Positions 3,849 through 19,222 of a stretch of 43,530 nucleotides of DNA are shown here, one piece after another. Positions within the stretch are counted from its first letter, which is position 1; each line of letters opens with the position of its first letter. The stretch covers positions 1 to 43,530 of the forward strand of contig CAMBQP010000019.1 of the NCBI GenBank assembly GCA_945869955.1. Direction: 5' to 3'. The notes under the pieces were generated by a model. That model was not told the DNA's origin. It ran no database searches and was given only the letters and a program-made list of their open reading frames with translations. The position numbers and the translations under genes are program-made. This DNA comes from Schlesneria paludicola DSM 18645. Lineage in GTDB: Bacteria > Planctomycetota > Planctomycetia > Planctomycetales > Planctomycetaceae.

Positions 3849-5852
3849 TTGACCGTGACTGACTGGTTACAAGAAAACGTGCTCTGGCTGATTCCCGCCG
3901 CCCCGCTGCTGGCGTGCCTGTGGATCGTGTTGGTAGGACATGTCATCCGTCGCCAATACGCCCATCGCCCCTTGGTGATCGGGCTCGCGGTCGCATTGGT
4001 CGCATCGCTGTACTTGCTCACCGTCGTCGTGCCTCATGGTTTCGGGCATGAGCATGAACCGAGTCACTCGGTTGTCACCACGGTGTATCAGTGGATTCAG
4101 ATTGGCACGATTGATATTCCCGTCAAACTGCGTGCCGATGCCATGTCTGCCCTGATGTTGACTATGGTGACTTCGGTCAGCCTGCTTGTCGCCATTTTTG
4201 CCAGCAGCTATATGAAGGGGGATCCTGGCTATCCGCGCTTCTTTGCCGCGATGGCGTTGTTCGTGTTTTCGATGTGTATGTTGGTGCTTGCGGGAAACTT
4301 TTTATTACTGTTCGTTTTCTGGGAAGCGGTGGGTCTTTGCAGTTACTTGCTGATTGGATTCTGGTTCCACAAACCGAGTGCCGCTGCGGCAGCCAAGAAA
4401 GCGTTTGTGGTTAATCGGATTGGGGACTTCGGCTTCATTCTGGCCATTTTTCTGATCTGGCAAACGTTTGGAACACTCGATTTTCAGACGCTCTTTGAAT
4501 CACCTCAGCGGATTGCCGAGGTTTTGAAAAGCCAACCCGAAATGTTCCATTGGATTTGCCTGCTGCTCTTTGTCGGTGCGGTCGGAAAATCGGCTCAATT
4601 TCCTCTGCAAGTCTGGTTGCCTGACGCGATGGAAGGGCCGACTCCTGTTTCGGCTTTGATTCACGCTGCCACCATGGTGACTGCGGGGGTCTATCTGGTC
4701 GCCCGTTGCACACCGTTCTTCGTCCATGCACCTCAGGTGCAAATGATTGTCGCGGGTATCGGGGCTGCGACGGCCTTGATCGCCGCCATCACGGCGTTGA
4801 CGCAATACGATTTGAAACGAGTCTTGGCTTATTCGACCGTGAGTCAACTCGGCTACATGTTCATGGCATTGGGTGCCGCCGGTGGTGGTGCTGAATTGGC
4901 TGTTCCTGCCGTCACGTTTGCCATGTTCCACATGTTTACTCACGCCTTCTTCAAGGCGGTCTTGTTTCTTTCCGCAGGTTCCGTGATGCATGCGATGGGT
5001 GACGTGATTGATATGCGTCGCTTCAGTGGACTGCGGAAGGCGTTGCCCATCACGCATTGGACGTTTCTCGCCGGGGCACTCGCCCTGGCTGGTGTCCCTT
5101 TGCTGTCAGGGTTCTGGAGTAAAGACGAAATCCTGGCCGTGTTGGCTGCCGCGTCCCGCGGATCCGAACATGGTGGCTTTTACAGCGTCATTCTTGGGAT
5201 TGCCTTGCTGACCTCGTTGATGACCGCCTTCTATACTTTCCGTGCTTACTTTATGACTTTCTGGGGTGACGAGAAGTTTCCAGAAGAGGCGGGACATCAT
5301 CCGCATGATGCACCACCCGCGATGGCAGGTCCGCTCGCCATTCTGGCCGGTGCGGCTCTGGTTGTGGGACTGATCTCAGGTCCGACCCATTTGTACGCCC
5401 ACTATCTGCATCATACACCCGGGTTCCCCGAGGGACACGAGTTCCCGATGGACTGGTTGATGATGGGGGTGAGCTCGGTTCTGGCGATCGGTGGGATTGG
5501 CGTCGCTTATCTGATGTATGTCCGATCACCAAAAACTGCCGAGAACCTGAAAAATCGCTTACCGATCCCCTTTTTGGTTTCGAACGAAGGTCTATTTATC
5601 GACTGGTGTGGGTACAAGTTTATCGCCAGCCCGCTGCGTGGGTTTGCAAAAGTGTGTGAACTGTTCGATCGTTGGGTCATCGATACACTGGTGGATTGTG
5701 TGGGATTCATTCCTGCCCTGTTCGGCAGTGTGCTCCGTCCGATCCAGAACGGGATGGTCCAAAACTACGCCATGGTGATGATGATCGGGCTTTTGGTTTG
5801 CCTGATCACGGTGCTCAGAGCGTTGGCGGTCACGACGTCGGGAACGATGTGA
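3849..5852 (+). CDS. nuoL: NADH-quinone oxidoreductase subunit L
   Basis: 667 aa; FVFWEAVGLCSYLLIGFW, VGAVGKSAQFPLQVWLPDAMEGPTPVSALIHAATMVTAGVYL, YDLKRVLAYSTVSQLGYM. Non-ATG start (TTG 3849 or GTG 3855). Confidence 0.97.
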   Translation: MTVTDWLQENVLWLIPAAPLLACLWIVLVGHVIRRQYAHRPLVIGLAVALVASLYLLTVVVPHGFGHEHEPSHSVVTTVYQWIQIGTIDIPVKLRADAMSALMLTMVTSVSLLVAIFASSYMKGDPGYPRFFAAMALFVFSMCMLVLAGNFLLLFVFWEAVGLCSYLLIGFWFHKPSAAAAAKKAFVVNRIGDFGFILAIFLIWQTFGTLDFQTLFESPQRIAEVLKSQPEMFHWICLLLFVGAVGKSAQFPLQVWLPDAMEGPTPVSALIHAATMVTAGVYLVARCTPFFVHAPQVQMIVAGIGAATALIAAITALTQYDLKRVLAYSTVSQLGYMFMALGAAGGGAELAVPAVTFAMFHMFTHAFFKAVLFLSAGSVMHAMGDVIDMRRFSGLRKALPITHWTFLAGALALAGVPLLSGFWSKDEILAVLAAASRGSEHGGFYSVILGIALLTSLMTAFYTFRAYFMTFWGDEKFPEEAGHHPHDAPPAMAGPLAILAGAALVVGLISGPTHLYAHYLHHTPGFPEGHEFPMDWLMMGVSSVLAIGGIGVAYLMYVRSPKTAENLKNRLPIPFLVSNEGLFIDWCGYKFIASPLRGFAKVCELFDRWVIDTLVDCVGFIPALFGSVLRPIQNGMVQNYAMVMMIGLLVCLITVLRALAVTTSGTM

Positions 5853-5865
5853 GGAAGATTCTTCG

Positions 5866-7551
5866 ATGCCCAGTTTGTTAGTTGTCATGATTTTTTTGCC
5901 TGCCCTTGCGGCGGTAGCGTTGTTGCTGCTCGATCCGCAAGCGTCGGCAGTCCGCGCCCGTTGGGTGGCCCTGATCGCCACGGTCGCAACGTTCTTTGTT
6001 TCCTGGGGAGTTGCTGCCCAGTACCTGGCGTTGCCAGCGATTGAAAGCCATGAACGTGGCCCCGTCCATCCGCAATTAGTGCTGCGGCAGACGTGGCTCG
6101 ATTTATCGGTGGCGGGACCCGTTTCGGCGTCCGGACCAGATAGCCCCGCAATCAAGATGGAGTTCTTCCTCGGACTGGACGGAATCAGTCTGGCACTCGT
6201 GCTGCTGACCACCATCCTGACGATCTCGTCCGTGCTGGTCTCGTGGACCGCTATCAAGGATCGGGCGGCCGAGTTCTATGCCTGTCTGCTGATTCTCGAA
6301 ACCGGTTTGATTGGGGTCTTTTGCTCGTTCGATATTCTGCTGTTTTACGTCTTTTTTGAATTCACTCTGATCCCCCTGTTCTTTCTGGTTGGGATCTGGG
6401 GTGGCCCGCTGCGGCGTTATGCCGCTGGCAAGTTTTTTGTTTACACCTTGGCAGGAAGCTTGATCACGCTGCTTGGTCTGGTTTCCATGGTGGTCACGAC
6501 TGTCAAAGCGAACCCGACCCTGGTCACGCCATTCTCGATTCCCGATCTGGCCAAAACGCTGACGGAGCACCCGTTGCCCGCCGAAACTCAGTTCATCCTG
6601 TTCCTGATGATCGCTGCCGGGTTTATGGTCAAAGTGCCCCTCTTTCCGTTCCATACCTGGCTGCCACTGGCTCACGTTGAGGCACCCACTGCAGGCTCAA
6701 TTTTGCTGGCGGGTGTGCTGCTGAAACTAGGAACTTATGGTTTCCTGCGGATGCTGTTGCCGATGTTACCTGATGCCTGTCTGAATACCGGCTTGCCCGT
6801 AATCGGCACGATGGCTTCCATCGGCATTGTCTATGGATCGTTTTGTGCTTTAGCTCAGAACGATATCAAGAAGCTGGTCGCCTACAGTTCGGTCGCACAC
6901 CTTGGCTTTTGCATGCTGGGCTTGTTCGCATTGAATATCGAAGGGATCAGTGGTGGGGTCCTGCAGATGATTAACCACGGCCTCTCGACCGGGGCGCTCT
7001 TCTGCATCGTCGGGATGTTCTACGAACGTTATCACACACGTCAGTTGAATGAACTTGGCGGGCTTGCCACGAAACTTCCGCTGCTCGCGGTGGCAATGGT
7101 CTTTACCTCGTTTGCCAGTATTGGACTCCCCGGCCTGAATGGGTTTGTGGGTGAGTTTCTCTGTCTGGCGGGGATGTTTCGTGCCGGTGATGGGATTGGA
7201 GTTCTCTTTTCCGCCTTGGGAGCCTTGGGTGTTGTGCTCGGTGCCTGGTATCTGCTCGGTGTCTTGCAACACGCGTTCTTCGGAGCGGTGAAAGTTCCGG
7301 CCGAGAGTCACGGTCATGATCATGAATCGGTGACCGACCTGAATGCTCGCGAGGTGGTCGCACTGGCTCCGCTGCTCACGTTATGTTTGTTGTTAGGTCT
7401 GTTTCCGCAACCACTGCTGAATCTCATCCGACCGGATGTCGAAGCGGTGGCCAGTCTGTACGAAATGAAAGCGGTTAAAGCAACTGCCGTGGTCAATGAA
7501 CCCTTGAAGCATTCGCCGAGCGTGGCTCTCGGCTCGGAGGTCCGCCCGTGA
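5866..7551 (+). CDS. nuoM: NADH-quinone oxidoreductase subunit M
   Basis: 561 aa; FFEFTLIPLFFLVGIWGG, KVPLFPFHTWLPLAHVEAPTAGSILLAGVLLKLGTYGFLR. Confidence 0.97.
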   Translation: MPSLLVVMIFLPALAAVALLLLDPQASAVRARWVALIATVATFFVSWGVAAQYLALPAIESHERGPVHPQLVLRQTWLDLSVAGPVSASGPDSPAIKMEFFLGLDGISLALVLLTTILTISSVLVSWTAIKDRAAEFYACLLILETGLIGVFCSFDILLFYVFFEFTLIPLFFLVGIWGGPLRRYAAGKFFVYTLAGSLITLLGLVSMVVTTVKANPTLVTPFSIPDLAKTLTEHPLPAETQFILFLMIAAGFMVKVPLFPFHTWLPLAHVEAPTAGSILLAGVLLKLGTYGFLRMLLPMLPDACLNTGLPVIGTMASIGIVYGSFCALAQNDIKKLVAYSSVAHLGFCMLGLFALNIEGISGGVLQMINHGLSTGALFCIVGMFYERYHTRQLNELGGLATKLPLLAVAMVFTSFASIGLPGLNGFVGEFLCLAGMFRAGDGIGVLFSALGALGVVLGAWYLLGVLQHAFFGAVKVPAESHGHDHESVTDLNAREVVALAPLLTLCLLLGLFPQPLLNLIRPDVEAVASLYEMKAVKATAVVNEPLKHSPSVALGSEVRP

Positions 7552-9092
7552 ACGAAGCCATCCAACAATTAAACGGAGCCTTGTCGCTCATCGCCCCCGA
7601 AGCGGTGATGCTGGCGGGGGTCTGCCTGATCTTCTTTGCAGCCCCTTTCCTGGTGAATGAGCGGGGCGAAGCGCCGGTCGGTTTGAGACACCGTTGGGGA
7701 TTCCTTTCCCTGTTAACCCTGGTGATCGCCGGATGTGTCTGGTGGCAAAGTCCACCCGTCCCCCGCACGATGGGCCCTTTCGTGCTGGACGAATTGACCT
7801 GGTACATCCGTGGCCTGACCCTCTTTTTCGGGGCAGTGCTGGTGTTATTGCACTGGAATCAAGCCGATGATTCCCGCTCGGCAGAAAGCCACGCCTGCCT
7901 GCTGGCGATCCTCGCGGGGGTCAATCTGATCGCAGCGTCCAACGACCTGATCGGGTTGTTCGTGGCGCTGGAACTGGTCAGTATTCCGACTTACCTCTTT
8001 CTGCTACTTCCTCGTCGGGACGCTCCCGCCCAGGAAGCGACTCTCAAATACTTCCTGCTGAGCATCTTTTCCTCGGCAATCGTGCTCTTCGGGATGAGCT
8101 ATCTCTACGGAGCGACGGGAACCACCAGCCTGGCGGGGATTCATGCCGCATTCTCGGCTGGCCCGCACCAGGTCAATCCTTTAGTGGCGGTGGCAACCGT
8201 GATGCTGATCGCAGGTCTCGGTTTCCGCCTGACCGCGGTTCCGTTTCACTTTTATGCTCCGGATGTCTTTCAGGGATCTCCGACTTCCGCTGCGGCAATG
8301 TTATCCTTCGTCCCTAAGATCGCAGGGTTTGTGGCGTTGCTGAGATTGATGGTTCCCGCGACTGGGGCCGAGCAGGCCGCGACCTCATGGTCGATGAACC
8401 CGGCAGCGATTCCACTGCTCTGGTGGCTGGCGGTCATTACGATGTTTGTCGGAAACCTGATGGCCCTGATGCAGACCGACATTCGTCGCCTGCTCGCCTA
8501 TTCCAGCGTTTCGCACGCGGGGTACATGATCGTTGGACTAGTTGTCGGCATGGAACACGAGATTCCCAAAGAGGTTCTCAGCCAACCAGTGGCTCATTCG
8601 GTGAGTGGCATTGGTGCCATGTTATTCTATCTGGCGGTCTACGGTTCCATGACACTCGGAACCTTCGCCGTGTTGATTGCTGCCAGTCGCGTCAACAAGC
8701 GGATCGAAACCTACGACGATCTCTCGGGACTGTCACGAACACGTCCAGGCTTGGCACTGGTGCTGGCGATTTTCCTCTTCAGTCTGGCGGGACTTCCCCC
8801 GACTGCCGGCTTCCTCGGCAAGCTGAACTTGTTCTTCGCAGCCTGGTCACAGGGATTTGAATCGAGTCGCTGGCTGGCGGTGGTGCTGGCGATCAATGCG
8901 GCGTTGGGTGCGTGGTACTATCTGAAGATCATCGGCGTCATGTTCTTGCGTGATCCGGTTGATCGAAGTGAAACCGAAATCCAGATCGAGGCCCCTTCGC
9001 TGCTTGCTGCGGGGATCTGCCTGATGGGGACGATCGGCTTGTTTTTCTTTCCTGGATGGATCTGGGGTCCGATTCAAAGCATCATGCCTTAG
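7548..9092 (+). CDS. nuoN: NADH-quinone oxidoreductase subunit N
   Basis: 514 aa; LELVSIPTYLFLLL, VPFHFYAPDVFQGSPTSAAAMLSFVPKIAGF, TDIRRLLAYSSVSHAGYM; overlaps nuoM by 4 nt. Confidence 0.96.
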   Translation: MNEAIQQLNGALSLIAPEAVMLAGVCLIFFAAPFLVNERGEAPVGLRHRWGFLSLLTLVIAGCVWWQSPPVPRTMGPFVLDELTWYIRGLTLFFGAVLVLLHWNQADDSRSAESHACLLAILAGVNLIAASNDLIGLFVALELVSIPTYLFLLLPRRDAPAQEATLKYFLLSIFSSAIVLFGMSYLYGATGTTSLAGIHAAFSAGPHQVNPLVAVATVMLIAGLGFRLTAVPFHFYAPDVFQGSPTSAAAMLSFVPKIAGFVALLRLMVPATGAEQAATSWSMNPAAIPLLWWLAVITMFVGNLMALMQTDIRRLLAYSSVSHAGYMIVGLVVGMEHEIPKEVLSQPVAHSVSGIGAMLFYLAVYGSMTLGTFAVLIAASRVNKRIETYDDLSGLSRTRPGLALVLAIFLFSLAGLPPTAGFLGKLNLFFAAWSQGFESSRWLAVVLAINAALGAWYYLKIIGVMFLRDPVDRSETEIQIEAPSLLAAGICLMGTIGLFFFPGWIWGPIQSIMP

Positions 9093-12327: not shown

Positions 12328-12697
12328 CGTTGAAAGGCCTTCTAAATCAGCAGTGAATGCGAAACGATCATGCCCAACTTCCAGAAACGTGCCGAGAGAC
12401 CGCAGCCAACCGCTGGGGGTGGCTTGTAGGAGACTCAGCTTCCTGCGACGAAGCGAACCATACCGATTGCAAAGTCGGTATGATATCGAAATGAAAACTT
12501 GAACCGGTGTGTGAAACCCAACACCCCGACCCAAACGAGACCGGCACGATCATTGCATCAACAGTACTGTGGTTTTGATCTTAAGCAAGTTACTCCACGA
12601 CGGAGAGAATTCAAGTCACTTTCTGTCGTCGTGACGTTTTGCTGGCCCCGATCGGTCTGTTTCCCTGGTTGATTATGGGTTGCCAGCCATCCTGTTC

Positions 12698-13915
12698 TCA
12701 CCGCTGGCTCTCACGGCGGACGGCGGTGGTCTCACGGTGGAAGATCAGTCGCGACTGGTGCCGACACGGAATTCCCCCAACAAATATCGGTGAAGTCCTG
12801 ATCGTTCTGGTCACCTCTTCTTCATGGATGGATTCATCACCGGTCGATTCTTCGTCTTTTTGCTGCACGCCATGTTCCCGAGCCCCATGCACCCAAACCC
12901 CATGCTCATAAAGCCTTAGCAACCGTCGCCAACCGAGACTCAGCCGCCCCATGGTCCAGCGGGCATTGATATCCTGCAGCGGACGAATTTGCCGAGCTCC
13001 TGTTGAGTCTCGGTAGGACATGGCGTCAATCCCCAGTGGACCGAAATAGCCCTGCGCTTGGAGGGTTTCGGCTGCACGCAGCCCCACCGTGATGGCGGCA
13101 GCCCAATCGTGGTGATCCCACTGCGAATCCGAGGAATTTCCCGGTTGATCCTCGGGATGATCCTCGGAATGATCCTGCGAATGATCCTGCGAAAACATGC
13201 TCCCCGCATATTGCCCGCGTTCGTCGACCCGCATCGGTGTCACCCCCATCAAACGGGGTGATCCAGTCGCCGGAACTTCGAATTGCATCCCGATTTCCTC
13301 GATCCGCTCAACCCACGGTTCGAGAAAGACGACCCCCTGAGCCAAAATTCGCCGCCGAATCCAATTCATTTCGGCAGCGGTCGCTGGCCCCCGACCGAGA
13401 ATCCGTTCCCGTGCTGACATACTGAACAAGGCTTTGACGACCCAGCGTTCGTTTGACGCGAGCAATCGCGGCAGCGCCGTCTGGAATTGCTCAACCGATT
13501 CGATTCGAGCCGCATCCGGTAAGCCGACACTCCAGCGCTGTTCCAGTTCTGCAGATGTCGCCCGGGAGTTGGCCCACCGGATCGCCTCGTCCGTCGGTGC
13601 ATTCATCTGCCACCCAGACCGAGTTCCCCATTTGCGGACTTCGTCAGACCAACCCCAGGGAATCAGTTCCGTCTGGCGGGGAACATGGGCCAGCGAGGTG
13701 ATCGGGATGACGTTGGGCAACTGATTCTGCACGGCCTCGACCCAGAACTGTGTGTCGATGGGGGACGGGGTCCAGATCAGGTCGCCATCGTCAGCGATCG
13801 CCAGCCAGGACGAGGCGAGTTCCGCATTCAGCCGCTTTAAGGCCTGAGAAGGTTCATTGCCAGCATCCGCTAACCGATGTTCAAAATCAAAATTGCCGTA
13901 AAACAAACGGGGCAT
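12698..13915 (-). CDS. ATP-grasp-like protein of unknown substrate
   Basis: 405 aa; RWVVKALFSMSARERILGRGPATAAEMNWIRRRI...GVVFLEPWVERIEEIGMQFEV and DINARWTMGRL resemble ATP-grasp motifs. Confidence 0.5.
   Translation of the reverse strand: MPRLFYGNFDFEHRLADAGNEPSQALKRLNAELASSWLAIADDGDLIWTPSPIDTQFWVEAVQNQLPNVIPITSLAHVPRQTELIPWGWSDEVRKWGTRSGWQMNAPTDEAIRWANSRATSAELEQRWSVGLPDAARIESVEQFQTALPRLLASNERWVVKALFSMSARERILGRGPATAAEMNWIRRRILAQGVVFLEPWVERIEEIGMQFEVPATGSPRLMGVTPMRVDERGQYAGSMFSQDHSQDHSEDHPEDQPGNSSDSQWDHHDWAAAITVGLRAAETLQAQGYFGPLGIDAMSYRDSTGARQIRPLQDINARWTMGRLSLGWRRLLRLYEHGVWVHGAREHGVQQKDEESTGDESIHEEEVTRTIRTSPIFVGGIPCRHQSRLIFHRETTAVRRESQR
13147..13194. repeat. 12-bp tandem repeat, 4 copies, inside coding sequence
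   Basis: GATCCTCGGGAT/GATCCTCGGAAT/GATCCTGCGAAT/GATCCTGCGAAA; encodes the SQDHSQDHSEDHPEDQ stretch on the minus strand. Confidence 0.9.
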
Positions 13916-14059
13916 CGAGCAAAACTCTTTCTTCGCAGGGGGTGGGCTTCACCGGAATCGGTGCTGGCGGGGAACTCGAGTCCACCATTCATGGAAGGGA
14001 CTGGGACGTTACGGTCTGCTCATTCATGGTGCTCGCCTGACGCGACTTCTCTGTTCCCG

Positions 14060-14146
14060 GTCTTCACGCTGTTAAATGTCTTCACTGTTTAATTGTCTTC
14101 ACTGTTTGAATGTCTTCCATGTGTTAAACGTCTTCACTGTGGCATT
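14060..14146. repeat. 17-18 bp degenerate tandem repeat, 5 copies
   Basis: GTCTTCACGCTGTTAAAT / GTCTTCACTGTTTAATT / GTCTTCACTGTTTGAAT / GTCTTCCATGTGTTAAAC / GTCTTCACTGTGGCATT. Confidence 0.92.
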
Positions 14147-14232
14147 GGGCAGACTTTCTTCCGTATGATGCTAAGTACGTAATTTTCGACTTCGGATGTT
14201 GCTGTTGGTCCTGTGGGAGCTTGTCGCATCAA

Positions 14233-15690
14233 ATGATCTGTATTTCCGTCACCCCCGAATCGCGTCAACTCGCCAAGGTTGACATTTATAACGCCGCGAA
14301 TCAATGCGATTTGGTGGAAGTCTGCCTCGACCGGCTTGTGAAAGAGCCCGATGTCAAAGACATGATCTCGGGTTCCAAGAAGCCGGTGCTGATTTCCTGC
14401 CGACCTCCCGAGGAGGGAGGGAAGTTTGACGGAACCGAGGAAGAACGTCTCGCCTTGTTGCGACAGGCCATCATCGCCGGGCCCGACTATGTGGAACTCG
14501 ACCCCGCCACGGCGATGAAGATCCCTCGTTTCGGTAAGACGCAACGAGTCATCAGTTTTGCCAGCATGACACGCCCGCTCACGGATGTCGACGAGGCCTT
14601 CGAAGAGGCGGCTCGCTGTAAGGGTGACATTGTCAAGTTCACCTGGCCGACGGATGTCCTAGAAGCCGCATGGCCGCTGCTGGCTGCCGTCAGTCAGAAA
14701 CGACTGCTCCCCGTAGTCGGCCTGGGTCTGGGGCGCTGCGGATTGACCTTTTCACTGCTCGGCCGCAAGTATGGTTCACCTTGGATTTACGCGGCCCTGG
14801 AAAAAGGGATGGAGGCTTTTCCCGGTCAACCGACTGTTGGTGAGCTGGATGATGTTTACCGCTGGCGGCAGGTTGATTCCAAAACACGCTTCATCGGCGT
14901 CGTCGGCGAAGGGGTGATCGAGCATGCCATCTCGAAAATTCTGAACGCCGCATTTGACCTCTCGGGGATGAACACCCGCTGCCTGCCGCTCGACTTCTCG
15001 TCGCTCGACCAACTGCCGAAAATGCTCGATATCCTGAAAGTTCCGGCAATCATTGCGACCCCCCTGGCAGGCCGACGGATCGCAGGATTGGCCGCAACGG
15101 GGGATGAGGTTGCTACGGCGGCCCAGTATGGTGATGTGGTCATCAAAACCGGCAATGGCTGGCAGGCACATAACCTGGTCTGGAAATCGGCTTTGCGGTC
15201 TCTGGAAGCGAAACTCGGAAAACAATCGGCCGAGGATCGGCCGCTGGATAAACGGAACACGATGATCATCGGCTCGGGAGGGCTGGCGATTTCGATGGCG
15301 CACGGGATTAAACGTCGCCAGGGTCTGGTCAGCATTTGTGCCGGGGACGAAGTTGAGGCCCAGAAGATCGCTCAGTCATCCGAATTGCGATTCGTCCCTG
15401 TTGCCAAGCTGTACGAAACATTGGTCGACGTGATCGTTCTGACGACCAACACGCTGGATTTTGGTTCCAAAAAGTCCGCACTGAATCCGTCCCTGTTACG
15501 CCAGGGGATGACCGTCATGGACCTCAGCGAAATGCCGGGGGAATCACGATACACCCGAGAAGCCCGAGATCGAGGCTGCAAGGTTGTTGAGCCCGCCGAA
15601 ATTTTTGCCGACTATCTCGGCTCGCTGTTCAAATCCTTAACGGGTCAAGAACTGCCGATGGAAGCGTTTGCGCAGGGGTTGAGCGATTGA
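14233..15690 (+). CDS. Type I 3-dehydroquinate dehydratase-like / shikimate dehydrogenase-like fusion
   Basis: N-term: VEVCLDRL, SCRPPEEGGKFDG, GDIVKFTWP, FPGQPTV; C-term: Rossmann TMIIGSGGLAISMAHGIKRRQ and a C-terminal EIFADYLGSLFKSLTGQELPMEAF like AroE ends. ORF extends to a possible TTG at 14221. Confidence 0.75.
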   Translation: MICISVTPESRQLAKVDIYNAANQCDLVEVCLDRLVKEPDVKDMISGSKKPVLISCRPPEEGGKFDGTEEERLALLRQAIIAGPDYVELDPATAMKIPRFGKTQRVISFASMTRPLTDVDEAFEEAARCKGDIVKFTWPTDVLEAAWPLLAAVSQKRLLPVVGLGLGRCGLTFSLLGRKYGSPWIYAALEKGMEAFPGQPTVGELDDVYRWRQVDSKTRFIGVVGEGVIEHAISKILNAAFDLSGMNTRCLPLDFSSLDQLPKMLDILKVPAIIATPLAGRRIAGLAATGDEVATAAQYGDVVIKTGNGWQAHNLVWKSALRSLEAKLGKQSAEDRPLDKRNTMIIGSGGLAISMAHGIKRRQGLVSICAGDEVEAQKIAQSSELRFVPVAKLYETLVDVIVLTTNTLDFGSKKSALNPSLLRQGMTVMDLSEMPGESRYTREARDRGCKVVEPAEIFADYLGSLFKSLTGQELPMEAFAQGLSD

Positions 15691-18212
15691 TCGCGAGAAT
15701 CTGGCGGGTGCGCTCACGTTTCTGGCTCTTTCAGCGTATCATACCATTGCCGATTGCGAACCGGTCGCAATCGGCCTCAAAGAGAATCCCCTTGATGTCG
15801 GTGTTTCGATTGCCTGCCCAACCCCATCACATCATCGTCAAACCGACTTCGTCCGATCCGCAATCGTTGAGTCGCGCGGTCGCGGAATCCCTATTTGGAC
15901 TCTTGGCAGTCACCCATGCGGTTACCCGTGCGACTCTTGGGCTCGGTAGGGACCCACTTCGAATCGGTTTCCTCTTCATACTGTGGGGAATCTGTTGTGC
16001 ATCATTCGTCTCGGCGGGGATCGCCTCGGCAGGGATCGATTCGGCCAGCCCGATCGCGACGATCCAGGGAACACCGACTGTCGGCTGGAAGGGGAATTAT
16101 CTGGTCGGCCGCTGGGCGCGAGTCGTCGTTCCCGTGCATGTCGATACGGTCGGTACGGATGGTCCCTTCCTGAACCTGAACAGTCAAATCACGGCAATTG
16201 ACCCGGATGGCCATCGCGTTCGGTTTCTCTCCCCCACGCAAACGCTTGGTCCAGGTGATCACCTGCTGGAAGGATTGATCAAAGTTGGTCGGTTGAATGG
16301 GGATTTGGAAATTCGGCTCGCACGGGATGATGGCACTCAAGAGGCGATGCTCACGGGTGTTGCCGGAAAGTCCGATTGGGTCCCCTTGCCACTGCTGCCT
16401 GCCACCCGCTTGATCGTCACCGTCGGAAAACCGGCCGGCTTTGAATCCATTGCGAGTTCGGTCAGTACTGGCTTGCAGGTGAAAGTGGTGGAAATCGAGG
16501 CGAGCGATCTCCCCACGAATGGCCTTGCCTTCGATGGGGTTTATTCGTTGGTCATTGCCGGGACTGCTGATCTGCAGCCGGGTCAAATTGACGCTCTGCA
16601 AGCATGGGTTGCAGCGGGGGGCCGGCTCATCATTTCGTTGCCAACCGACCAGGCCGCGGCGAGAAAATCGTTACCCGAATGGGTGCCAGTCCGGATTGCC
16701 GAACAGCCGATCACGGTGCGTGAGTTTGGTGGACTCGAAGCCTTTTCAGGAAAAAACCTGCGCATTCCTCAGACATCCAGCCTGACGATCCCCAAGCTGG
16801 AAATTGATTCGGGTGAGGTTCTGGCGGCGAGTCGTGCGAATCCGTTTCTGGTGCGAGTCCCCTCGGGAATCGGTTCGGTGGCGGTGCTCGCCATGGATTT
16901 GACCACCAGCCCGCTGAAGGATTGGAAGGGGCTCACCCCCTTTTGTGCTCGACTGACCGGGAACAGCCAGAATTCCGATTCGATTGAAAAAGGGGTCAAC
17001 AAAGGGATTAACAAGGGGGCTCAGCTGAGTTCCACAGGGATCACCGACTTATCGACGCAGATTCATGCGATTCAAGATCACTTTGATGAAGTGAAACGGG
17101 TCTCTCCGTGGTTTGCGATGATCGGGTTGCTCGGCCTGCTCTTGATCATCGGTCCGCTGGATTACCTGATTGTGCATCGTTTGTTGAAACGTCCGCACTG
17201 GACATGGATCACCTTCCCCCTGTTTGTCGTGGGGACCTCCGTCGTGGCCTCGGCTCTCGCCAATTCCTCGAATGGACGCTCCTTTCGGGCCAATCAGTTG
17301 AATATCGTGAATGTCGATGTCAGTTCCAACTCGGTTCATGCTCGACATTACCTGAGTCTTTACAGTCCCCAGACGGTCCAAACTTCGCTCACGATGGAAC
17401 CGGTTTCTTTGATCAAGGATCCACAGCAAAAGCCGGTTGGGCGAATCAGTTGGGAAGGGGTTCCGGAAGCGACTTTTGGCGGGATGTTGCGAGAAAAAGG
17501 GCTCGAGCAAGGAGCCTTATACGAACAGCCGGCGAATGGCGAACTGAATCAAATTCCGATTATGCAGTGGAGCTCGAAGTCGCTGGTCGGCGACAGCATC
17601 TCGTCCGCTGAGGGGTTGGTCGAATGTCAGCTGCGGGCAACTCCTGCAGGAAGCCTGACGGGAACGATTTTGCATCGATTCGCAACCCCGATCGAAGACT
17701 GGATGATCGTCTATCAAAATCGCGTTTACCGCCAGCTGAAATCCCGCGACGATCCCCGCTCGATTCCACTCAAGCAAGAGCAAGTCTGGCGCGTCGAACA
17801 ACCGAGTGTCTTTCAGCGGGAATTGCGACCTTACCTGACGGGAATCCTGACAATGGCGACCCCCCGTTTTGGTGCGCGGGCCGCGAGCGATCCCGCACAT
17901 CAGCATTCGTCCTACGACCCGTTGTCGCTGGATCCACTCAATGTCATCCGGATCCTGACCTTTCACGATGAAGTGGGCGGGGAACGTTACACCGGTTTGA
18001 CCAATCAAATGCTGCATGACCAGGACTGCTCGCAATTGATCAAACTCGGACGTGCCGTGCTGTTTGGACGTATCGATCAACCCCTGGCGACCCTGCGGCA
18101 GGATCAACAGGTCTTAACTCCTGATCGCGAAGCCTCGTTTGTTCGCCTGATCCTTCCCGTCTACAAGTCGGGAGAACTGATGAACGATTTGAAACGCGTT
18201 GTCCCTGACTAG
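15687..18212 (+). CDS. Large membrane-anchored protein (GATase-like middle domain)
   Basis: 841 aa ORF (true start may be ATG 15795); DALQAWVAAGGRLIISLP and TM MIGLLGLLLIIGPLDYLIVHRLL; sits upstream of an ABC ATPase. Confidence 0.55.
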   Translation: MIARIWRVRSRFWLFQRIIPLPIANRSQSASKRIPLMSVFRLPAQPHHIIVKPTSSDPQSLSRAVAESLFGLLAVTHAVTRATLGLGRDPLRIGFLFILWGICCASFVSAGIASAGIDSASPIATIQGTPTVGWKGNYLVGRWARVVVPVHVDTVGTDGPFLNLNSQITAIDPDGHRVRFLSPTQTLGPGDHLLEGLIKVGRLNGDLEIRLARDDGTQEAMLTGVAGKSDWVPLPLLPATRLIVTVGKPAGFESIASSVSTGLQVKVVEIEASDLPTNGLAFDGVYSLVIAGTADLQPGQIDALQAWVAAGGRLIISLPTDQAAARKSLPEWVPVRIAEQPITVREFGGLEAFSGKNLRIPQTSSLTIPKLEIDSGEVLAASRANPFLVRVPSGIGSVAVLAMDLTTSPLKDWKGLTPFCARLTGNSQNSDSIEKGVNKGINKGAQLSSTGITDLSTQIHAIQDHFDEVKRVSPWFAMIGLLGLLLIIGPLDYLIVHRLLKRPHWTWITFPLFVVGTSVVASALANSSNGRSFRANQLNIVNVDVSSNSVHARHYLSLYSPQTVQTSLTMEPVSLIKDPQQKPVGRISWEGVPEATFGGMLREKGLEQGALYEQPANGELNQIPIMQWSSKSLVGDSISSAEGLVECQLRATPAGSLTGTILHRFATPIEDWMIVYQNRVYRQLKSRDDPRSIPLKQEQVWRVEQPSVFQRELRPYLTGILTMATPRFGARAASDPAHQHSSYDPLSLDPLNVIRILTFHDEVGGERYTGLTNQMLHDQDCSQLIKLGRAVLFGRIDQPLATLRQDQQVLTPDREASFVRLILPVYKSGELMNDLKRVVPD

Positions 18213-18295
18213 TGACGGACGTTCCTGACCGATTTTTCGACAATTTGTTTCGCATCCGGCCCCGATTTTTCCTCATTACGCTTTGACTGACGATC

Positions 18296-19222
18296 ATGAT
18301 TGAAACCCGCCAGCTCACCAAACGTTATGGCCATCTGATCGCGGTCAACGAGATTAATCTCTCGTTGAAGGAAGGCGATGTGTTTGGGTTTATCGGTCCC
18401 AACGGATCGGGAAAAACGACCACCATGCGGATGATTGCCACATTGCTGACGCCCGATTACGGCGAGGCGTACATCTGTGGCAAGTCGATCTACAATGACC
18501 CGCGCGAGATTCGGCGACTGGTCGGGTACATGCCAGACTTTTTCGGCGTCTACGATGACATGACTGTCATCGAGTACCTCGAATTTTTCGCCTCGGCCTA
18601 CCGCATCAATGGTCCTTCGCGACGAAAAATCTGTGAAGAAAAACTCGAACTGGTCGACATGGCATTCAAACGCGATGCCATGGTCAATCAGCTCTCACGC
18701 GGTCAAACCCAACGGATCGGGTTGGCGCGAACCTTGTTGCATGAACCTCAGGTGTTGCTGCTGGATGAACCAGCCAGCGGCTTGGACCCCCGTGCCCGAA
18801 TTGAAATTCGTAACCTGCTGAAAAAACTGGGTGAACTGAAAAAAACGGTGATTGTATCGAGCCACATCCTGCCGGAATTGGCCGACGTTTGTACGCGTGT
18901 GGGGATGATCGAAAAAGGAAATCTGATCATTGATGGCTATGTCGACGAAGTGATGCGGAAGGCGCGTCAGCAGATCATGCTGCAGATTCGCGTGAAAGAG
19001 AACCTGGAAAAAGCGGCCGCCTTACTGCAAAAGCATGAACTCGTTTCGCATGTCGACATTGTCAAAGGGACCATCGACGCCACGCTGAAGGCAGATACCT
19101 TCGACTATAGTTCTCTGCCGACACTCTTAATCACGGAGGGCTTTCAGCTCACATTATTTCGTGAAGAGGAAGTCAATCTCGAAACCGCCTTTATGTCGCT
19201 CACCAAAGGACTGGTCCAGTAG
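18296..19222 (+). CDS. ABC transporter ATP-binding protein
   Basis: Walker A GPNGSGKTT, signature LSRGQ, Walker B VLLLDEPASGLDP, H-loop VSSHI. Confidence 0.93.
   Translation: MIETRQLTKRYGHLIAVNEINLSLKEGDVFGFIGPNGSGKTTTMRMIATLLTPDYGEAYICGKSIYNDPREIRRLVGYMPDFFGVYDDMTVIEYLEFFASAYRINGPSRRKICEEKLELVDMAFKRDAMVNQLSRGQTQRIGLARTLLHEPQVLLLDEPASGLDPRARIEIRNLLKKLGELKKTVIVSSHILPELADVCTRVGMIEKGNLIIDGYVDEVMRKARQQIMLQIRVKENLEKAAALLQKHELVSHVDIVKGTIDATLKADTFDYSSLPTLLITEGFQLTLFREEEVNLETAFMSLTKGLVQ

Follow-up and report, generated by a model that had tools for sequence, protein, structure and literature searches.

In the mechanism of type I dehydroquinase (DHQase), an essential histidine helps to form and to hydrolyse the Schiff base (PMC9902378). 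Stalled catalysis was reported for a His-to-Ala mutant, going by the title of Leech 1995 as it is cited in PMC9902378, and the H143Q variant of E. coli AroD is inactive (PMC9074039). In Aro1 of C. albicans, the type I DHQase domain, in which Gln replaces the histidine, is inactive (PMC9074039). The fungal repressors QutR, qa-1S, and GaaX resemble the last three domains of AROM and are thought to have lost enzyme activity (PMC6528562); their DHQase-like domain was suggested to hold a keto metabolite without turning it over (PMC6528562). Our literature search found no papers on planctomycete paralogues of AroDE, in which DHQase is joined to shikimate dehydrogenase (SDH). Here we describe such a paralogue from the planctomycetes, a group of aquatic bacteria; it lacks the canonical catalytic residues in both halves.

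The window, a stretch of 43,530 nucleotides from Schlesneria paludicola DSM 18645, contains on its plus strand an open reading frame of 485 amino acids at 14233-15690, with its ATG at 14233 and its stop at 15690. The ATG was preferred over an in-frame TTG at 14221 because close homologues have this M(I/L)C motif at their start as well. An earlier note, made from the sequence by eye, had called this frame an AroD-AroE-like fusion. Pfam DHquinase_I matched residues 3-209 (E = 1.9e-34, 120 bits), and no Pfam model of SDH matched the protein even at E = 10. The NCBIfam model of bifunctional AroDE, PRK09310, covered residues 1-460 with 61.5 bits, below its curated cut-off of 598, and phmmer aligned residues 3-483 to the Arabidopsis DHQ-SDH 2gpt (E = 4.6e-31). 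An AlphaFold model built from 66 homologues was confident throughout (mean pLDDT 92.2, pTM 0.89), and its best PDB match in Foldseek was the Arabidopsis DHQ-SDH 2o7q, with a TM score of 0.87 over the full length. Both halves of the two-domain DHQase I-SDH fold are thus predicted to be kept, and the earlier domain reading is right. The Pfam match and column entropy delimit a slowly evolving DHQase-like barrel with the Schiff-base Lys at residues 1-211 (14233-14865). The SDH-like half, placed by the profile match, the alignment, and the structure match, comprises residues 212-485 (14866-15687); its fold is predicted to be kept, with its substrate and NADP sites lost.

Residues were counted in 121 altered copies, 108 from members of the planctomycete family and 13 from outside it, and in 23 intact copies. 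Pocket geometry was read from the alignment, which also carried over the E. coli and Salmonella residue numbers. In the copy under study, the equivalents of Lys170 (K135, codon 14635-14637), Glu46 (E29), Arg82 (R57), Glu86 (E61), and Gln236 (Q199) are kept, and the Schiff-base Lys, Glu, first Arg, and PGQ region that had been noticed by eye are therefore found again at K135, E29, R57, and Q199. Across the altered copies, Glu46 is present in 121/121 and Lys170 in 120/121; Arg82 is present in 118/121, with Lys in the remaining three, and Gln236 in 113/121, the same number that has Glu or Asp at the Glu86 position. Three other residues are lost in the copy under study: His143 is Ala110 (14560-14562), Arg213 is Ser174 (14752-14754), and Arg48 is Cys31. 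The catalytic histidine is absent from 119 of the 121 copies, the position being occupied by Thr in 97, Ala in 15, His in 2, and Ser, Val, or Asn in the others. At the Arg213 position, Ser was found in 110/121 copies (104/108 among family members) and Arg in none. The Arg48 position holds Cys in 87 copies and still holds Arg in 22, including most of the group from outside the family.

Strand 8 of the barrel and the lid of type I DHQase structures, together W184-Q199 (WIYAALEKGMEAFPGQ, 14782-14829), are rebuilt. New residues near-invariant in the altered copies are Trp184 (121/121), Glu190 (120/121), and Glu194 (119/121), and the position of Ala233 is Phe, His, or Tyr in 117/121. Judged by the alignment, this half has the Schiff-base Lys of a functional type I DHQase but neither its catalytic His nor its substrate Arg. 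Two copies from one genus (L038 and L193, in G021 and G144) are the only altered ones with His at the His143 position; they have lost Arg213 and the acidic residue at Glu86, and L038 also has an unusual letter make-up. One family genome carries, beside another altered copy, a second and divergent one (L192, G075:C41:95142-96638) in which Arg213 is replaced by Gly and His143 by Asn.

In the second half of the copy under study, the alignment places H231 and I233 at the two serines of the SxS motif, G280 at Lys65, D301 at Asn86, V316 at Asp102, and G371 at the NADP Arg. The canonical residues are all present in 22 or 23 of the 23 intact copies, with the Lys/Asp pair and both serines in 23/23, and are lost in most altered ones. 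K65 and D102 are gone from almost all altered copies, Asn86 survives in about a tenth, and the NADP Arg in a few only. The Rossmann GxGG motif, which the earlier note had seen to remain, is indeed present as GSGG in this copy, though it is eroded in many homologues. The Lys/Asp pair, the SxS serines, and the Rossmann motif together with its NADP Arg would all be expected of a functional SDH; by alignment the pair, the serines, and the Arg are missing here. The losses read by eye in both halves, at His143, Arg213, SxS, Lys65, and Asp102, are thereby confirmed.

The note had asked whether the genome has a separate intact aroD and aroE, and had regarded the lack of any other copy as an outcome that would overturn its reading. 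The opposite was found. A search of the assembly (6.25 Mb, 95% complete) for other AroDE proteins gave one relative, at C118:7743-9185, which is 29% identical to the altered protein and has all canonical motifs: SHHDF, DIIKL, GVWSR, APGQ, HSLSP, VTIPHK (PHKEA), SSNTD, GAGGAA, and SRT. No type II dehydroquinase (aroQ), no other SDH N-domain, and no third type I DHQase were found in the assembly. Genes for DHQ synthase (aroB) and chorismate synthase (aroC) are present, so the shikimate pathway runs, and since the C118 copy is intact and no other aroD, aroQ, or aroE was found, this copy is most likely the working pathway enzyme. The suggested planctomycete variant, in which the pathway step would run by different chemistry, is unsupported, because the intact copy covers that step.

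The known DHQase mechanism is not possible for a protein in which the essential histidine is absent, and on its residues the altered protein has almost certainly lost both reactions. It could be argued that it still works as a DHQase or an SDH with unusual residues, given the kept equivalents of the Schiff-base Lys, Glu46, Arg82, Glu86, and Gln236. We regard this as very improbable in view of the loss of His143 and Arg213 across the copies, of K65/D102 and SxS, the inactivity of E. coli AroD H143Q (PMC9074039), and the intact copy in the same genome. Another idea is that the altered protein is a non-catalytic subunit that pairs with intact AroDE in mixed dimers and so modulates it. An intact AroDE is present in nearly every carrier, and the two folds are closely alike, but about 29% identity and a faster second half give no clear sign of a common interface, and the altered and intact genes are unlinked; we consider this idea unlikely.

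The altered protein was seen in records of Schlesneria, Gimesia, Planctomicrobium, Thalassoglobus, and Fuerstiella, among others, and named relatives put the window in Schlesneria or close to it. Members of the altered family scored at least 385 bits against its profile, and the highest score of a full-length intact AroDE was about 330. When two samples (35/37 and 41/43) were merged with each genome counted once, the altered copy was found in 67/71 family genomes, being absent from G030, G035, G179, and G187. Outside the family, a high-scoring altered copy occurred sporadically in 11/116 genomes of the class, in three families (f3, f8, and f4), and in a phylum-wide sample every match from other classes scored below 270 bits. 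In one genome from another family of the class (G039), there are four AroDE-like copies (L041, L055, L056, and L057), of which L057 is intact and three are altered, two of them very divergent; L055 (334 bits) and L056 (303 bits) are altered, yet fall within the lower score range. A tree of 52 sequences, made by a quick search and with the long branches of L055 and L056 falling within the altered group, had one branch that split all intact from all altered copies (SH-aLRT 100). Nearly every carrier also holds an intact AroDE; the single-match carrier, G004, is an 89% complete assembly. Chance or sequencing error is excluded because the same kind of changes recur in 67/71 family genomes. These comparisons point to an old, conserved, separate clade and not to the decay of one gene.

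The genomic context varied among the loci. Neighbours in the window are not common even to relatives at 86% identity, and clustering of 67 loci gave only lineage-specific neighbours and no conserved one: a CehA/McbA metallohydrolase upstream in 12 loci and a PfkB kinase downstream in 5 Schlesneria loci. Because the neighbours are not conserved, the altered gene seems to stand alone. Pfam showed no enriched family among 114 neighbour proteins, and NCBIfam spot checks added nothing; inference of function from gene neighbours was dropped, as the neighbours are lineage-specific and no family is enriched. One group of five loci with a called target (L096, L099, L100, L101, and L107) has trpD upstream on the other strand; in L096 and L099 the two genes are immediate neighbours. 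This hints weakly at aromatic amino-acid metabolism. Pfam found no DNA-binding domain in the altered protein, and no link to a regulator was found at the loci. No RNA families were found in 12500-18500, and similarity in the upstream DNA is limited to the closest relatives, with no shared leader by eye. For the flanking frames at 12698-13915 (minus strand, 405 aa) and 15687-18212 (plus strand, 841 aa), Pfam gave nothing above threshold; the latter has a sub-threshold match to DUF4350. Further upstream, the frame at 7548-9092 (plus strand) matches Proton_antipo_M, of the NADH:quinone oxidoreductase/Mrp antiporter type, and similar frames adjoin at 3849-7551.

Typical close pairs of altered copies had dN/dS of about 0.02-0.04 in both halves by YN00, a figure that covers the closest pairs only, and two nearly identical pairs were lower. 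The frame is open in essentially all genomes, and the second half is kept nearly full length throughout the altered family. In one copy (G027:C1:128928-130358), an in-frame TGA lies near the C-terminal end, and the protein ends at about residue 470. Sequence comparison thus indicates that strong purifying selection preserves the altered gene. The loss of catalytic residues could be taken as a sign of a decaying pseudogene, but the family-wide open frame, the low dN/dS, and the many invariant columns refute that reading, and we give it practically no weight. The suggestion of a repurposed protein in the earlier note is well supported by an intact paralogue in the same genome and by an old clade under strong purifying selection. 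The phenomenon is wider than had been noted: by these comparisons, it is a family-wide, selected, catalytically altered AroDE paralogue.

The two halves evolve differently. Over 36 pairs among nine genomes with both copies, mean identity of the first half was 65.5% for the altered copies and 64.5% for the intact ones, whereas that of the second half was 41.3% and 57.5%. The DHQase half is as slow as that of the real enzyme, and the SDH half is much faster; column entropy in the altered copies was 1.02 bits for the former versus 1.82 bits for the latter. In the altered copies, the columns that once formed the active site of the second half show no more conservation than its remaining columns (permutation 0.34); in the intact copies, the active-site columns are by far the better conserved. 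In the altered first half, the DHQase shell is somewhat above average in conservation, but not significantly so (permutation 0.12), because some shell residues are invariant and others are replaced. From these constraints we infer that the barrel pocket is probably still used in some form and that the dehydrogenase pocket, its constraint lost, is not. The earlier note had missed that both folds are predicted to be kept while the halves fare differently, the first retaining the Schiff-base Lys and part of its pocket and the second having an unconstrained pocket.

The altered copy probably became either a sensor or regulator or a new kind of enzyme. We lean tentatively, by analogy with QutR and GaaX, towards a repurposed paralogue that would hold a carbonyl ligand on Lys135 and act as a sensor or regulator. 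An old duplicate of planctomycete aroDE may have abandoned both textbook reactions for a new role, leaving the pathway to the intact aroDE elsewhere in the genome. The barrel would still bind a small carbonyl metabolite, and 3-dehydroquinate would no longer be turned over. A barrel with the Lys but without the His could keep its ligand in a slow or stalled Schiff base with Lys135. The non-catalytic second half might then pass on the binding signal by touching a partner protein, as was suggested for QutR and GaaX; such a role is favoured because the dead half was kept nearly full length and folded. With no conserved neighbour, DNA-binding domain, or link to a regulator found, the regulatory step rests on this analogy. 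Against the sensor reading, the strict Lys, Glu, and Arg and the new pocket residues could be explained just as well by a new enzyme. The DHQase shell also counts against it, as its conservation taken as a whole does not significantly exceed that of the remainder of its half.

Almost as probable is a new Schiff-base enzyme, which would use Lys135 with Glu29, Arg57, Glu61, and perhaps Glu190 and Glu194 on another carbonyl substrate, with the dehydrogenase half only structural. The near-invariance of the Lys, Glu, and Arg and of the new E190 and W184 speaks for it, as do the slow barrel and the aromatic residue or His at A233 with Arg213 to Ser in nearly all copies, which looks like a coordinated rebuild of pocket and lid. 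However, the His143 position varies among homologues, being mostly Thr and here Ala, so whatever replaces the His is not a catalytic residue in its own right; all through the family a dead second half of about 270 residues has been retained, and no neighbour gene suggests a pathway. A more specific form of the proposal is plausible but somewhat doubtful: in planctomycetes, an AroDE duplicate would have evolved independently into a metabolite-sensing pseudoenzyme, a bacterial counterpart of QutR that binds a keto metabolite on the old Schiff-base Lys and signals via its dead dehydrogenase domain, or, just as possibly, into a new lysine-dependent enzyme.

If the sensor reading is true, fungi and planctomycetes, two distant lineages, each recruited the same shikimate-pathway domain pair as non-catalytic proteins, which would be a clean case of repeated evolution from enzyme to sensor. 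Annotation may be affected too, as automated pipelines could label the altered gene aroD or aroE or count it as the pathway enzyme when the working enzyme is encoded elsewhere. The matter can be tested directly, because the intact paralogue, found in nearly every genome, gives the family a ready internal control, and Lys135 offers a clear prediction at the residue level.

The altered protein resembles AroDE and DHQ-SDH proteins (PRK09310, 2gpt, 2o7q, and intact planctomycete AroDE) in domain order, length, predicted fold, and the Schiff-base Lys with several other pocket residues. Unlike them, it has lost the catalytic His and the substrate Arg from its first half, along with the residues for substrate binding, catalysis, and NADP from its second, and it forms a separate clade that coexists with the intact copy; lacking these defining residues in the alignment, it does not belong among the functional AroDEs. 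With QutR, qa-1S, and GaaX it shares degenerate DHQase and SDH domains. These fungal repressors, however, are derived from AROM, have an extra shikimate-kinase domain, and are encoded beside their activator, whereas the altered protein starts at the DHQase domain and its gene has no conserved neighbour; a regulatory role here is a matter of analogy. Having no kinase-like domain and no activator neighbour, it does not belong to the QutR/GaaX group and at most may work like it. As in the DHQase domain of C. albicans Aro1, the catalytic His is replaced and another DHQase is present in the genome (PMC9074039), but the other domains of Aro1 are active in the pathway, whereas the present protein is altered in its two domains alike and is, as a whole, a spare paralogue.
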